Of a stretch of 33,996 nt of DNA, positions 2,693 through 26,000 are shown piece by piece. The position numbers and the translations under genes are program-made. Within the stretch, counting starts at the first letter, position 1. Each line of letters starts with the position of its first letter. The stretch is from a virus. Below the pieces are notes generated by a model, which saw nothing but the letters and a program-made list of their open reading frames with translations, did not search any database and was not told the origin of the DNA. The DNA is taken from IMG/VR virus record IMGVR_UViG_3300012964_000033, positions 1-33,996 of that record; one strand, given 5' to 3'.

Positions 2693-3649
2693 ATGACCGG
2701 AGAGACCACTTTTACCGATGACGAGTTGGCACATTTGAGCCCCGAGGAGCGTGCAGCCGTTGCCGCGCCGGAGGATGCCGACGGTACGGCGACTGACGCC
2801 GGATCCGGCACCGATGCCGAAGATCCGGATTTCGGCGCGCATGTCCCGGATGCCGGCGGCGAAGGCGCTGGTGCCGCAGCCGCAGCCGGCGGGGATGGTG
2901 ATGGGGATGGCGGAGACGCAGGCGCCGAAGCGGCGGCCGCGGACGATGACGCCCAACACCGTAACGCTATCCTGTTCCCGGAAATCAAGATCGAAGGGCC
3001 GGCCGACTTCGAGGCGTTGATGAAGACGTTTGGCGATGAGCGGTCCGCGATCGTCACCAAGTTCAAGGAAGGGGAGATTGGTGTCGACGATCTCCTGTCA
3101 CAGACCCATGAAGTCGACCAGCGCATCGCCGCGCTGCGCGAGCACAACTTGGCCGCCAATCTCGCCAATGAATTCACGACTCAGGGGAAGAAGCAGGCCG
3201 CGCAGGACTTGTGGCAGCGCGAGCAGGACACATTCATGGACGACCATCAGGAGTACAACAACGATCCGATCCTGCGCTCGGCGCTGAACGCGGCCGTTGT
3301 CACCCTGGCGCGAGATCCCGAAAACCGCCGCTGGACTGGCGCCAAGGTTCTCGAAGAAGCGCACAAGCAGGTTCAGGCGCGTTTCGCGCAACCGTCTGCC
3401 GGCGACAAGCCGACCGACAAGCCGACCGACAAGCAACCGAGCGAGGCGGCCAAGAAGACCGAGGCGGCGCGCCGTCCGGATCTGGCGAGCCTGCCGCGGA
3501 CGCTTGGCGGTCTGCCGCCGGCCGATGTCTCGAGCACCGGGCAGGACGAGTTCGCGGCGCTCGACAGTCTGTCGGGTGTGGAACTGGAGAACGCGCTCGC
3601 CAAGCTCACACCAGAGCAGGAAAGCCGCTATTTGAGGGCTGGCGCGTAA
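2693..3649 (+). CDS. Scaffold-type head assembly protein
   Basis: The 318-residue protein lies between portal and major capsid. The first 85 residues are very acidic and Ala/Gly/Asp-rich (low complexity). Residues about 90-235 are charged and helical with likely coiled coil. Then come short DKPTDKP repeats and a helical tail (LENALAKLTPEQESRYLRAG). This unstructured, acidic, helical make-up without catalytic motifs, together with position, is typical of podovirus scaffolds that template the procapsid and leave before packaging. A GAGG Shine-Dalgarno (SD) sequence precedes the ATG. Function is inferred from architecture and context. Confidence 0.75.
   Translation: MTGETTFTDDELAHLSPEERAAVAAPEDADGTATDAGSGTDAEDPDFGAHVPDAGGEGAGAAAAAGGDGDGDGGDAGAEAAAADDDAQHRNAILFPEIKIEGPADFEALMKTFGDERSAIVTKFKEGEIGVDDLLSQTHEVDQRIAALREHNLAANLANEFTTQGKKQAAQDLWQREQDTFMDDHQEYNNDPILRSALNAAVVTLARDPENRRWTGAKVLEEAHKQVQARFAQPSAGDKPTDKPTDKQPSEAAKKTEAARRPDLASLPRTLGGLPPADVSSTGQDEFAALDSLSGVELENALAKLTPEQESRYLRAGA
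3404..3434 (+). repeat. 12-bp tandem repeat in scaffold gene
   Basis: The unit GACAAGCCGACC occurs twice in full (3404-3415 and 3416-3427) and then partially (GACAAGC). It encodes Asp-Lys-Pro-Thr repeats in a linker of the scaffold protein and probably arose by slippage. Confidence 0.8.
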
Positions 3650-3653
3650 CCCA

Positions 3654-3860
3654 ATGTCTTTGCACATTGACTTGCGGGTCGGACAGTCCGTGTCGATCGA
3701 CAATGGCCGTGTCGTAATGACGCTCAAGGACAAGAGCGGCAAGAAGGCCAGTCTCGAATTCGACGCGGACAAGTCCGTCCGCATCCAGAAGCTTGACGGC
3801 CACGACTCCGCCCATGTGGCGGCCGGCGGCCTCTCAGATCCGGTCCTGTCTACCGGATAA
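3654..3860 (+). CDS. CsrA-like small protein
   Basis: The 68-residue protein resembles the CsrA/RsmA RNA-binding fold. The segment RVGQSVSIDNGRVVMTLKD lines up with the CsrA pattern R-V-G-E-x-L-x-I followed by beta strands, and DADKSVRI lines up with the strand before the CsrA REEI helix. The canonical HREEI segment is not conserved here (it reads QKLDGHD), so RNA binding may be altered or lost. It sits between scaffold and major capsid genes. Directly downstream, the capsid leader contains two stem-loops, one with GGA near its apex, which is the kind of site CsrA proteins bind. Whether it regulates capsid mRNA or is a structural protein that borrowed the fold cannot be told from sequence. 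Confidence 0.6.
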   Translation: MSLHIDLRVGQSVSIDNGRVVMTLKDKSGKKASLEFDADKSVRIQKLDGHDSAHVAAGGLSDPVLSTG

Positions 3861-3867
3861 ACGATTT

Positions 3868-3908
3868 TCGCGGGATCCCGCGACAAGCCCCGACCTGGGC
3901 ATCAGGTC
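3868..3908 (+). promoter_or_regulatory. Two tandem stem-loops in capsid leader
   Basis: The first is a perfect 16-nt palindrome, TCGCGGGATCCCGCGA, at 3868-3883, with GGA next to the apex. The second is GACCTG-GGCAT-CAGGTC at 3892-3908. No T-tract follows either, so they do not look like terminators. They lie in the 90-nt leader before the major capsid ATG and could stabilise the mRNA or bind a regulator. Role inferred. Confidence 0.5.
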
Positions 3909-3950
3909 ATCGCCAGCGCATGAGTGCGGCACCAAACAAGGAGCCTACTC

Positions 3951-5057
3951 ATGGCACGCACTATCGTTGGCCTTAACGACGCCAAAGCCGTCAAGCGGTA
4001 CTCCGGCTATCTGGCGGTCGACGTGGGACGCACGTCCTACTTCAACAAGAAGTTCATGGGCGTCGGTGAAGACTCCAGCATGCCGATCCAGATGCTTCCG
4101 CACCTGGAGAACGATGCTGGCGAGCAGATCACCTACGACCTGAGCATGCAGCTCAAGATGCAGCCGGTCGAGGGCGACTCCACGCTGGAAGGCAAGGAGG
4201 AAGACCTCAAGTTCTACACCGACAACGTGTACATCGACCAGATGCGCGGCGGTGTGAACACCGGTGGCCGGATGACGCGCAAGCGCACCATCCATGACCT
4301 CCGCAAGGTCGCTCGCAAACGCCAGGGCGAGTGGTGGGCGCGCGTGTTCGACGAGCTGTTCTTCATGTATCTGGCGGGCGCCCGCGGCATCAATGCGGAT
4401 TACATCTATCCGACCACCTACACCGGCTTCGCCAACAACGCCCTGACGGCACCGGACTCGAACCACATCCTGTACTCGGGTTCTGCCACTGGCAAGGCCA
4501 ATCTGGCGTCGACCGACAAGATGTCGCTCACCACGATTGACCGTCTGGTGGCGAAGGCCGACATGATGGGTGGCGGCACGACCGGCGTTCCGCAGATCCA
4601 GCCCATCATGATCGACGGCGAGGAGCATTACGTCCTCGTGATGACGCCGTGGGACGAGTACAACGTCCGCGCCAACGCCAGCACCGGTCAGTGGATGGAC
4701 ATCCAGAAGGCCGCGGCCACGGCGGTCGGAAACAAGAGCCCGATCTTCAAGGGCGGTCTCGGCATGTACAACGACGTCGTGCTGCACAAGCACAAGGCGG
4801 TGATTCGGTTCACCGACTACGGCGCCGGCGCCAACGTCTCCGCCTCGCGTTCTCTTTTCATGGGTACGCAGGCGGCGGTGTGCGCGTTCGGTTCCCCGGG
4901 CACCGGTCTGCGGTTCGACTGGAACGAGGAGTCGCGCGACAACGGCAACCAGGCGGTCATCACGACCTCGACCATCTGCGGCATCAAGAAGACCTCGTTC
5001 AACAGCGAGGACTTCGGCGTGATCGCGGTGGATTCGGCGGCTGCCGATCCGGGCTGA
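3951..5057 (+). CDS. Major capsid protein, N4 gp56-like
   Basis: The 368-residue protein is the expected major head shell subunit. The N-terminus (MARTIVGLNDAKAVKRYSG), the segment LENDAGEQITYDLSMQLK (about residues 48-65), the GGRMTRKRTIHDLR stretch (about 105-118) and the GMYNDVVLHKHKAVIR strand region (about 272-287) match the pattern of N4 gp56-family HK97-fold capsid proteins as I know it. I chose ATG 3951 over an in-frame GTG at 3924 because AAGGAG precedes it at good distance. It follows the scaffold and CsrA-like genes. A hairpin at 5079 separates it from the next virion gene. Confidence 0.85.
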   Translation: MARTIVGLNDAKAVKRYSGYLAVDVGRTSYFNKKFMGVGEDSSMPIQMLPHLENDAGEQITYDLSMQLKMQPVEGDSTLEGKEEDLKFYTDNVYIDQMRGGVNTGGRMTRKRTIHDLRKVARKRQGEWWARVFDELFFMYLAGARGINADYIYPTTYTGFANNALTAPDSNHILYSGSATGKANLASTDKMSLTTIDRLVAKADMMGGGTTGVPQIQPIMIDGEEHYVLVMTPWDEYNVRANASTGQWMDIQKAAATAVGNKSPIFKGGLGMYNDVVLHKHKAVIRFTDYGAGANVSASRSLFMGTQAAVCAFGSPGTGLRFDWNEESRDNGNQAVITTSTICGIKKTSFNSEDFGVIAVDSAAADPG

Positions 5058-5078: not shown

Positions 5079-5098
5079 CCGGGCGCAAGAGTGCCCGG
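5079..5098 (+). promoter_or_regulatory. Stem-loop between capsid and decoration genes
   Basis: CCGGGCGC-AAGA-GTGCCCGG forms an 8-bp stem (one G-T pair) with a tetraloop. The following bases CTCATGCTTTCC are only weakly T-rich, so partial termination or mRNA end protection is more likely than full termination. It could tune the ratio of the two highly expressed head proteins. Confidence 0.5.
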
Positions 5099-5131
5099 CT
5101 CATGCTTTCCAAACTCAAGGAGTAAACACTC

Positions 5132-5611
5132 ATGTCGCTTCTGCAGACCAACTACGCAAAGGGCATCTATCCGATGCCGACCGCGGACGACTCGGATGTC
5201 ATTGCTGTCCGCATGGAGTACAGCCTCGCGGCTGCGCTCGCCCTCAACGATGTGATCGAAATGGGTCCGCTGCCCGCCGACCATGTGCCGGTCGATTGCA
5301 TCCTCGATGCCGACGACCTCGACACCAACGGCGCGCCGACCATCACCTTGTCGGCCGGTATCCTGAACGCGGGCAAGACCGCGATCAGCACCGCGGCAGC
5401 TGACGGTGGCGCGGCGTGGATCGCGGCCTCGACCGTCGCCCAGGCCGGCGGTCTCGTCCGTCCGACGGTGAGCGCCATCACGCGCGTTGCCCCGGATGCG
5501 GCCAACGACCGCCCCATGGGCGTGCTGGTGGCGGCCGGTCCGGCGACCGGCGCCGCAACCGGCAAGGTCGGCCTGACGGTGATGTACCGCGCTTCTTCCT
5601 ACGGCGCGTAA
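5132..5611 (+). CDS. Putative capsid decoration/head protein
   Basis: The protein has 159 residues and is rich in Ala, Gly, Thr and Val, predicted almost entirely beta. AAGGAG lies before the ATG. It starts with LLQTNYAKGIYPMPTADDSD and ends with GKVGLTVMYRASSYGA. Its position after the major capsid gene, its size and its composition fit small head decoration or vertex proteins that bind the shell after expansion. No enzymatic motif is seen. A strong terminator follows 21 nt after the stop, closing the head transcription unit. Function inferred from context. Confidence 0.65.
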   Translation: MSLLQTNYAKGIYPMPTADDSDVIAVRMEYSLAAALALNDVIEMGPLPADHVPVDCILDADDLDTNGAPTITLSAGILNAGKTAISTAAADGGAAWIAASTVAQAGGLVRPTVSAITRVAPDAANDRPMGVLVAAGPATGAATGKVGLTVMYRASSYGA

Positions 5612-5632
5612 TGCTGACTTGTAAGCAAGGCG

Positions 5633-5664
5633 AGGGGCGCCGGCCACGGCGCCCCTTTCTTTTT
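5633..5664 (+). terminator. Intrinsic terminator after head genes
   Basis: A perfect 10-bp stem (AGGGGCGCCG at 5633-5642, CGGCGCCCCT at 5647-5656) with loop GCCA is followed by TTCTTTTT. It lies in the 73-nt gap after the decoration gene and is the clearest intergenic terminator in the window. Confidence 0.9.
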
Positions 5665-23000: not shown

Positions 23001-26000
23001 GACAAGATGCTCAAGGCCATGGGCGAGGCGATGTTGCAGCACACGGCGCTTGGCTACCGCATCGGCGGTGACGAGTTTGTCGTCCAGGCGAAGAACGAAC
23101 TCGACACGAAACGCATCATGGAGGCCATCGCCAAGACCTTGTCGGAGGCCGAAATCACCGTCCAGAGGCCGGACGGTTCCACCATCACCAAGAAAGGGGT
23201 AGGATTCTCTTATGGCTACGGAAAAGATCTACAGACCGCCGACAAGGCTCTCCTCGCCGCGAAAGGAGAACGTGAAGCTGCAGGGCAAAGGGCAGGGCGG
23301 GGGCTTACCCCTCCAGGGGTGGTTGAACGCCATGCCGAGCGGCAGCACGATCAAGTCGATCAAGGTGCCGAAGAAGTAAGGCCACCAGAACAACCCGCAG
23401 AGAAGCCGTCCAATCCGGCTACCGAAACGCCCTCGAAAGAGGGCGTTTCTGTTTCTGGTGGCATCAATCTTCGTGATGCCGTCCAGTCGGCATGGGACAA
23501 GTACGACGACACCGGCGAATACACGCATACCGAATTGGTCGATGCCATCGAGGAAGCCGCTCGTCAGAACGACTCACCGGAAGCCGATGAGCTTCTGGAT
23601 GCCGTCAAGGCGTACCGACGCGAACAGGATGACGACCGGGAACTAGGTGGCCGCGGCGACATGGATTCCGCCGAGGAAGCGTTTAATGCCGCCGTTATGA
23701 GCGCCATCAGCGCACCGCCTCCGCGCGATGCCGAGGAAGGACCGAGCGGGTCCGTGGACAGAAGTAGCGGAAAGATCACCTTCAAGCACGCGAACGTCGT
23801 CATCCGTCAGGTCCGGGACAGAAACGCTGAACTCCTGGGCACGGTAATCGAGCCCTACGACGGCACGATTGAGGGAGCAAGGCAGGCAGCCAGGCGTGCC
23901 ACGGAACGCATGTGGCGGGACTACGGCGATGCCAGCAATATCCAAAGCATGATCGGCGCGACCGACGAGAGCGGTAAGCCGAAGTGGGCTATCAGCCCCA
24001 ACTTCTCGAAGATTGCGCCGGTTGACAGCCATGAGGGGCGCGCGATCTTTGGTGATCCCGACGCCATCCATGAACTATTCGGCAAAAAGGCGCTGGCATC
24101 GCCGGTCGATGAGGCCGCCCATGAATCCGCCACGTCACCTGAGAACAACCTGCCAGAGCCGACGCAGGCCCAGAAAGAAGCCGGCAACTACCAGAAGGGC
24201 CACGTCCGCCTACATGGCCTCGACATCAGTATCGAGAACCCGATCGGATCCGAACGCAGCGGTGTGGACAAGAGCGGCAAGCCGTGGTCCATCGAGATGC
24301 AGAGCCACTACGGCTACATCAAGGGCACGGTCGGAAAGGACAAGGACCACATCGACGTGTTTCTCGGGCCGCACGCCGAAGACGCCAGTATGCCGGTGTT
24401 CGTGGTCGACCAGAAGAAGGAGAACGGCGACTTCGACGAGCACAAGGTCATGCTCGGCTACCAGGACGCGACCGCGGCCACCACCGGCTACCATGAGAAC
24501 TACTCGAGCGGCTGGACTGGCATGGACGGCCTCACGGAAATGTCGCTCGACCAGTTCAAGGACTGGCTCAAGAGCGGCAAGACCAAGGAACCGGTTAGCC
24601 AGGGCGCGCACGGTCGCTGGGCGCTGACGCAGGCGCGCAATCCAGAGAAGGAGGCGGCCAATGCCGGCCAGTTCAAGGAAGGCGACCGCATCGTCATCGC
24701 GCGCCACTACAACAAGGAATTGGAAGGCCGGCACGGCGTCATCACCAAGCACAACGCCTATACGCTCCGCACGATTGAAATCTTTGGCGGTCGTGAACAC
24801 AGCGAGACACACCACACCTTCGACGTGAAGACCGACGCGGGTGTCGAGACCAACGCGCGGGCGGAGGATCTGCGCCACGAGAAAGGCGAGGCACCGAAGG
24901 TAACTCCGGATGTCGTCCTGCCGGAAGGCACCTACACCCCGGCGCATGTGCTGGAAATCATCAAGCAGCGACGCGGTCGGGCACGGTCCAACGAAGAAGC
25001 CGCGCTGCGCGCACGCAAGCAAGAACGCATCGTCGAACTCAAGAAGCGCGCCGAGGCCGAACGCAAGAGCGCGGCCAAGGCGCAGGAAGCCTACGACGCC
25101 TGGGCAGATAAACACCCGCAGGAGGCCGCCGCGCTGCGTGGCAACGCACACCCGGAGCCAACCACACCGGACGAGCGCGCCGAGATCCGGCGTCTCGAGG
25201 GTGAGGAAGCCAAGGCGGCCGGCGAGCCGTCCAAGAGCGCCATGCAGGCGGTCCGCGCCGCCGGACTCGACGTTCGCAAGACCAAGACCAACAAAGGCAA
25301 CGACGTCTGGGAAGTGTCCGGCAAGACCAGGGACCAGAAGGACATGCTCAAGTCACTGGGCGGGCGCTGGTACGGTCCCAAGAAGGTGTGGAGCTTCTAC
25401 AATGGCGACCCGACCGATGCGCTGGCGAAGCGGCTGGGATGGAAGGGTGAAGAAGTCGCCCCTGAGCCTATCCGTGAGAATTCACGGAACGCACTCCATA
25501 CGGAGCCAGTTCAGAACGAGGGGCTTGGTGAAGAAACGGTACAGGAGCCGCAAAAGCCAGTCAACGAACAGCGCGCATCAGAGTACGGATCTAAGAACAA
25601 ACTCGTCACCAAAGACCGCGCCGAGGAGATCCGCGCCAAGCTCAAGGCCAAGCTGAATCAGCTGAACGCGGGCGTCGATCCGGAAATGATGGCGCTCGGC
25701 GCCGAACTCGCCGTCTACCACATCGAGGCCGGCGCTCGGCAGTTTGCGGCGTTCAGCAAGGCGATGCTGGCGGACCTGGGCGAGAAGGCCCGCCCGTACC
25801 TCAAGGCTTGGTACATGGGCGCCCGGAACTGGCCCGGCATGGACAAGTCCGCCATGAACACCGAGGCCGAACTTGACCAGATCCCGGAACAGGCGGAGGA
25901 TAATAGCCATGATGTACGCACACCGAATCCTGAAACCCGAAACGATCAGCGCAGCGGCGAAGCTGGGTCCGATCGCGGACCAGATTCTCGACCGCTGGGC

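Follow-up and report, generated by a model that had tools for sequence, protein, structure and literature searches.

CsrA, of the CsrA/RsmA/RsmE family (PF02599), binds CAGGA-type loops and can bridge sites that lie 10-63 nt apart, with L4 and R44 as critical residues (PMC7652899). In the case of ymdA, it activates expression by removing a hairpin that sequesters the Shine-Dalgarno (SD) sequence (PMC7492729). A phage csrA-like gene has been termed a moron (PMC9144972, PMC10269572) and listed among the phage csrA alleles (PMC7366521). One peptide of the CsrA-like protein of phage JC1 was detected in virions (PMC9144972), which would fit a structural role. In another phage, PTXU04, knock-down of a csrA homologue, which may or may not be kin to the present family, alters plaque size (PMC11879866).

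A different kind of precedent is the MS2-type coat-protein operator, in which a small hairpin close to a start codon carries a short, conserved loop.

The phage system described here resembles the CsrA/RsmA/RsmE systems in the fold and small size of the protein, in the 5'-leader hairpins close to the SD, and, in part of the leaders, in tandem sites at a bridging distance and in loops of the CAGGA type. It differs in that the protein falls below the Pfam cut-off, its model has no confident C-terminal helix, and R44 and R6 are not kept in its family, which is best conserved at a KSG..AR turn; the RNA loop is ANGA(N) and not ANGGAN, and the would-be targets are late genes of the phage. The logic that we propose is that of ymdA, where binding removes an SD-sequestering hairpin (PMC7492729), except that in the phages the binding and closing hairpins use one and the same strand segment, and that the element forms a conserved family spread over many genes. 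Compared with the MS2-type operator, the loop and the protein fold are different, and there is a competing long hairpin. The nearest described relatives are the PHROG_8397 proteins of Bcep22-like phages (JC1 gp47, CSP3 orf23, BcepIL02 gp49), which belong to the same family and are encoded at the same place; the passages on them in PMC9144972, PMC10269572 and PMC7366521 name no RNA target or hairpins. A literature search, whose scope did not extend to the founding Bcep22/BcepIL02 paper, returned no description of these hairpins and no target named for the phage protein. Parallels are known both for the protein family and for the logic; what appears to be new is the RNA family with its loop, together with the late regulon.

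Gene order at the capsid locus

The window, that is, the whole 33,996-nt stretch analyzed here (IMG/VR record IMGVR_UViG_3300012964_000033), is a virus contig, 25 kb of which gave no megablast match to phages. Its plus strand encodes, in this order, a portal protein (428-2674; P22_portal, E 9.1e-165), a scaffold-like protein (2693-3649; PHROG_8246, E 3.8e-42), the CsrA-like protein of 68 amino acids (3654-3860), the major capsid protein of the N4-gp56/Phage_capsid_3 type (3951-5057; Phage_capsid_3, E 9.4e-64), and a virion structural protein (5132-5611; PHROG_8455, E 6.7e-21). PHROG_8246 has no assigned function, and we infer the scaffold role from position and composition. The capsid unit closes with a strong terminator-like hairpin (5632-5657, a consensus match; three sites found against 1.6 expected), so that the capsid gene and gene 5132 may share one short transcript. 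A promoter scan of the capsid leader in the window found no promoter. Elsewhere in the window, at 25454-25524 on the minus strand, Rfam reports a DUF3800-IX RNA (44.2 bits, cut-off 36.8), antisense to the apparent coding direction.

The CsrA-like protein

The first-pass annotation had put a CsrA-fold candidate between the scaffold and capsid genes, and sequence and structure comparisons bear this out: ORF 3654-3860 is a real gene with a predicted CsrA fold. A match to PHROG_8397, 'CsrA-like regulator' (E 7.7e-14), covers positions 1-53 of 64, the greater part of that profile. Its score against Pfam CsrA is 15.3 bits, below the gathering cut-off of 27; our alignment of 44 members combines the window protein with 43 relatives found on viral contigs. 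Of these members, 24 match Pfam CsrA at E <= 0.01, and a profile built from all 44 retrieves RsmE (E 1.4e-8, the best match) and CsrA from the PDB. The AlphaFold model has pLDDT of at least 90 at 45 of 68 residues, with block means of 95-97 over residues 1-40, and superposes on CsrA, RsmA and RsmE at 0.7-1.1 Å over about 45 residues. The best 14 Foldseek matches to the model all belong to these three proteins, and structure comparison gives the CsrA fold Z of 6.2 against 2.6 for the next fold.

The RNA-contact residues are another matter. As had been remarked from the sequence, the REEI segment is altered, reading QKLD in the window protein. Arg44 and the basic β1 residues with which CsrA contacts RNA are poorly conserved in the phage family. 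The window protein has Lys at the place of R44, which is Arg or Lys in only 19 of 44 members; the place of R6 is hydrophobic in all 44 and never basic, and that of R7 is Arg or Lys in 34. The family keeps its basic residues best on another turn, at places 27 and 33. Given this, and given that GG stands at the place of GGA in only 19 of the 63 ANGA loops discussed below, the contact surface has probably moved, if the protein does bind these hairpins. A link between loop letter and residue (Arg at the R44 equivalent in 10 of 23 proteins with G at loop position 2, versus 4 of 40 otherwise; Fisher p 0.0038) was set aside, having been picked post hoc with kinship ignored; the wider association of Arg or Lys with GG gave p 0.10.

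Phyletic distribution of the csrA-like gene

The csrA-like gene belongs to the core gene set of the Bcep22-like podoviruses and related phages. Loci were gathered by capsid-led scans of viral contigs; a scan for close relatives with the CsrA-like protein alone found none. The gene lies directly upstream of the capsid gene in phages of Burkholderia, Erwinia, Pseudomonas, Serratia and Klebsiella, and within 900 nt of it in 87 of 99 capsid loci. Among the 12 exceptions, two sequences (L091, L099) begin too near the contig end. L027 has its csrA-like gene further upstream, behind an inserted GIY-YIG-like ORF; in L057 the insert is present and no csrA-like gene was found at the capsid locus. Diverged ORFs, judged by eye, occupy the csrA-like position in L034 and L085, and L035 has the same leader as L034. 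In PBC5, Atu_ph08 and POI1126, the gene follows the scaffold gene at a distance from the capsid gene. Mwe-JY25 offers a weak candidate in one search and no match in a second, and Paracoccus phage KLEP18-1 has none.

Some further features of these loci were noticed in passing. The GIY-YIG-like ORFs, recognized by eye (L027, 1244-1912; L057, 2261-2998), interrupt the stretch that leads from the csrA-like gene to the capsid leader. Four loci (L063, L069, L074, L076) have unusually long gaps of 560-700 nt between the csrA-like and capsid genes, and the hairpin still adjoins the latter. Among F116-like Pseudomonas phages, some 34 F116-type records contain a csrA-like gene of another sort, together with a second match that frequently carries a structural-protein annotation.

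As a control, we used same-superfamily capsid genes found with the capsid of the Paracoccus phage, leaving out 7 of 80 loci with partial or edge matches (L134, L136, L142, L143, L167, L178, L184). The remaining 73 loci contain no convincing csrA-like gene, the two weak matches having E-values of 0.007 and 0.095. With leaders at least 85% identical collapsed, 54 non-redundant ones are left, of which two have the ANGA element, a chance-level number. Co-occurrence of the element with csrA follows a single capsid clade and does not amount to many independent events; portal, scaffold or capsid would co-occur equally well.

A conserved hairpin in capsid leaders

The stretch 3854-3965 folds better than all of 200 shuffles (z -3.2). 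The first-pass annotation had described two stem-loops here, one with GGA at its apex, and a further GGA in the ribosome-binding site; all three are found. The first stem-loop (3868-3883, UCGCGG-GAUC-CCGCGA) has its GGA partly paired, the second (3892-3908) has the loop GGCAU, and the other GGA (3940-3942) lies within the SD of the capsid gene, AAGGAG at 3938-3943. L020, the closest relative, has both stem-loops as well, with some of the stem letters changed (the second has the same loop on a different stem), and neither is family-wide. The GGA-apex hairpin, found again only in L020, was dropped as a candidate conserved site.

The conserved structure is a third hairpin, absent from that description and overlapping the region of the SD and start codon. 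Side-by-side reading of 99 capsid leaders revealed a recurring GCGC-ANGA(N)-GUGC hairpin, which in the window is GCGC-AUGA-GUGC at 3916-3927. After leaders at least 85% identical were collapsed (98 to 75; L027, which has no clear capsid start, was left out), the hairpin is present in 72 of 75, compared with a mean of 2.9 after shuffling. The other three are L061, with a same-shaped hairpin of other stem letters (by eye), L099, cut by the contig end, and L019, from Paracoccus. All four inner stem pairs are formed in 72 of 72 leaders. Among the 50 leaders with tetraloops, both sides vary in compensatory fashion in five of six pairs, and the covariation score is 0.361 against 0.111; the former was reached by none of 500 shuffles, and slid positions never exceeded 0.165. 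Among C-G-closed tetraloop hairpins, ANGA accounts for 48 of 73 upstream of the capsid gene, as opposed to 0 of 28 on the antisense strand, 1 of 125 in capsid coding sequence and 0 of 15 in control leaders. A search of 477 kb of sequence with the strict pattern gives 72 hits in sense orientation, of which 60 lie no more than 80 nt from the capsid start, besides 3 antisense hits and 2 in reversed sequence. Twelve of the 75 leaders have two copies, 11 of these with a pair 20-35 nt apart. At the gathering score, Rfam has no family at the leader element in the window or in eight related loci.

A competing hairpin at the start site

The loop and 3' arm of the ANGA hairpin are also complementary to the SD-AUG stretch of the capsid leaders, which makes the two hairpins mutually exclusive. 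In the window, the competing hairpin (3920-3952) pairs 3920-3925 with 3947-3952, closing SD and start codon with a predicted probability of 0.92. The mean complementary run is 4.99 in leaders' own pairs. Exchanging halves among leaders lowers it to 4.04 (0 of 5000 permutations as high, kinship ignored), and shuffling the partners lowers it to 3.09. No rise is seen at two control positions upstream; a +10 shift does show one, consistent with an inner helix that extends to the SD. The pairing letters vary by lineage: GAGUGC/GCACUC, GGAUGUGC/GCACAUCC, GGAAGUGC/GCACUUCC, UGACGUG/CACGUCA, GAGGGCC/GGCCCUC, GUGAC/GUCAC. In 66 of 72 leaders, a G-U wobble forms the second pair of the ANGA stem. This would be expected if the U has to serve the long hairpin too, where its partner is A; of 13 extra copies located further upstream, 6 have G-C there.

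According to the fold predictions, the default state of the SD-AUG region is mostly closed, and formation of the ANGA hairpin opens it. The long closed hairpin has P>0.5 in 63 of 72 leaders, and forcing the ANGA hairpin costs 6.3 kcal/mol on average. When it is forced, the unpaired fraction of SD-AUG rises from 0.25 to 0.48 (up in 58 leaders, down in 1, of 72), and from 0.23 to 0.59 in the window. Openness of the SD taken by itself changes less, and not uniformly (it rises in 42 of 72 leaders and falls in 13), and in some leaders, such as L007 and L016, the long helix uses sequence upstream of the SD instead. An RNA switch in the capsid leaders is strongly supported by these observations.

Copies before other late genes

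An initial view, in which the element belonged to the capsid gene only, had to be dropped. Only the 38 GTGC-type hits, in 17 phage genomes, were traced to genes, and 33 of them precede late genes: 16 capsid, 10 endolysin, 3 DarB, and 4 virion or tail genes. All such copies are before late genes in POI1126 (5 of 5) and Atu_ph08 (4 of 4). The five hits outside leaders are PBC5 961, overlapping the annotated start of gp03, and four Lessievirus copies, taken to sit in the DarB coding sequence (annotation was viewed for BcepMigl only) and representing either chance or coding constraint. In BcepMigl, GCGCAGGACGTGC at 47777 is within the DarB coding region, and DC1, JC1 and CSP3 have it at like places. 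The looser GYGC pattern is weakly specific in whole genomes, with 58 hits against 31 for the reversed pattern.

In the window, a second ANGA hairpin (CCGGGCGC-AAGA-GUGCCCGG, 5079-5098) stands ahead of gene 5132, with a competing pairing of 5089-5093 to 5127-5131 (spanning 5089-5131) across the SD of that gene; L020 and L021 also have the element before the gene that follows the capsid. Eight relatives have it before the scaffold gene. In five relatives (L055, L064, L071, L078, L090), the loop AGGA doubles as the scaffold gene's SD; it lies 7-9 nt from the ATG and about 1320-1450 nt ahead of the capsid gene, an arrangement suggestive of feedback on the scaffold-csrA operon. In PBC5 and Atu_ph08 (L013, L014), copies lie back to back between the endolysin and capsid genes, one for each of two divergent genes.

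A gene-blind scan of viral contigs, with the element and its SD-AUG partner as the pattern, gave 27 matches in 24 stretches, several on contigs already among the capsid loci. They include 19 before capsid genes (identified by N-terminal letters), one before an endolysin, one before a tail-fibre-like gene, and two before a PHROG_8123 gene; a csrA-like gene is in the record for 21 of the 24 stretches (19 of 22 in one search, plus L204 and L211). The same scan of bacterial genomes gave 19 matches in 18 stretches, eight of them before capsid or lysozyme genes by N-terminal letters, and the remainder apparently due to chance. That the element and its SD-AUG partner are a translational switch common to late genes is well supported. 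The earlier suggestion of local translational control of capsid versus scaffold holds in so far as the structured leader looks like translational control; the control is not local, as the element also precedes endolysin, DarB, virion and some scaffold genes, and its seat is the ANGA hairpin with its SD/AUG competitor rather than the two stem-loops or their GGA.

Proposed mechanism and alternatives

In our judgement, it is about evenly balanced whether these phages have a late-gene translational regulon in which late genes are switched through leader hairpins with the CsrA-like protein as partner; the protein itself is the likely partner. The start site would be open when the ANGA hairpin is formed (the proposed ON structure) and closed when the longer hairpin is formed (OFF). 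The CsrA-like protein, made from the portal-scaffold-csrA genes, would bind ANGA hairpins as a dimer and keep the leaders open, so that translation of capsid and lysis genes would begin when the protein has accumulated sufficiently. In the five relatives whose AGGA loop is the scaffold SD, the same binding would shut the scaffold gene and the csrA-like gene behind it. Tandem hairpins, 20-35 nt apart in 11 leaders, are within the 10-63 nt bridged by a CsrA dimer, and both the CsrB repeat CAGGA(U/A/C)G and the SELEX site (PMC7652899) are similar to loops such as GCAGGAUGUGC. A fuller version remains tentative: a diverged phage CsrA-family protein with an RNA code of its own, the ANGA hairpins, may be the late regulator of the whole group, flipping bistable leaders to turn on translation of capsid, lysis, DarB and virion genes, and in some lineages shutting its own scaffold-csrA operon, where the hairpin loop is the SD.

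It is rather unlikely, though worth serious attention, that the leader switch is real and worked by another factor, be it capsid or scaffold protein, some other phage protein or a host RNA-binding protein, with the CsrA-like protein acting on host mRNAs or in the virion. In favour of this are the poor conservation of R44 and GGA in the phage family and the JC1 virion peptide (PMC9144972); co-occurrence at the level of a clade fails to single out csrA, and Atu_ph08 and PBC5 keep csrA with the scaffold gene, far from the capsid gene. Against this, proteins of the CsrA family are binders of leader hairpins, the loops are like CsrB repeats (PMC7652899), and the control group lacks both the element and the csrA-like gene, save for two chance-level matches in 54 leaders.

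We consider it improbable that the CsrA-like protein binds the hairpins and represses, holding late genes off or occluding the SD until titrated, for instance into virions. Repression is the usual mode of CsrA (PMC7652899), the SD before the scaffold gene is within a hairpin loop in five relatives, and the virion peptide (PMC9144972) would agree with titration; the ANGA hairpin of the capsid leaders, however, is upstream of the SD and in fold predictions excludes the closed structure, which points to activation.

More doubtful still is a protein-free RNA device, in which a 5' hairpin would stabilize the mRNA, slow the folding of the closed form, or be cut by RNase III. In some phages a promoter-like stretch (by eye) just upstream would place the element near the 5' end, but stability alone explains neither the repeated copies nor the conserved A-N-G-A loop over changing stems. 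A DNA-level operator for a late activator, which the near-palindrome ahead of late genes might suggest, deserves hardly any credence in view of the compensatory stem changes, the complementarity to the SD-AUG stretch and the strand-specific placement (72 sense versus 3 antisense hits).

Implications for late gene control in phages

The timing of phage late genes is usually ascribed to transcription. A covarying leader switch before capsid, endolysin and DarB genes that travels with a phage CsrA-like protein would be a late regulon at the level of RNA. The ANGA hairpins provide a concrete candidate target for a protein so far called a moron, and, if protein and hairpin are shown to work together, they would constitute a new gene-control circuit of phages.
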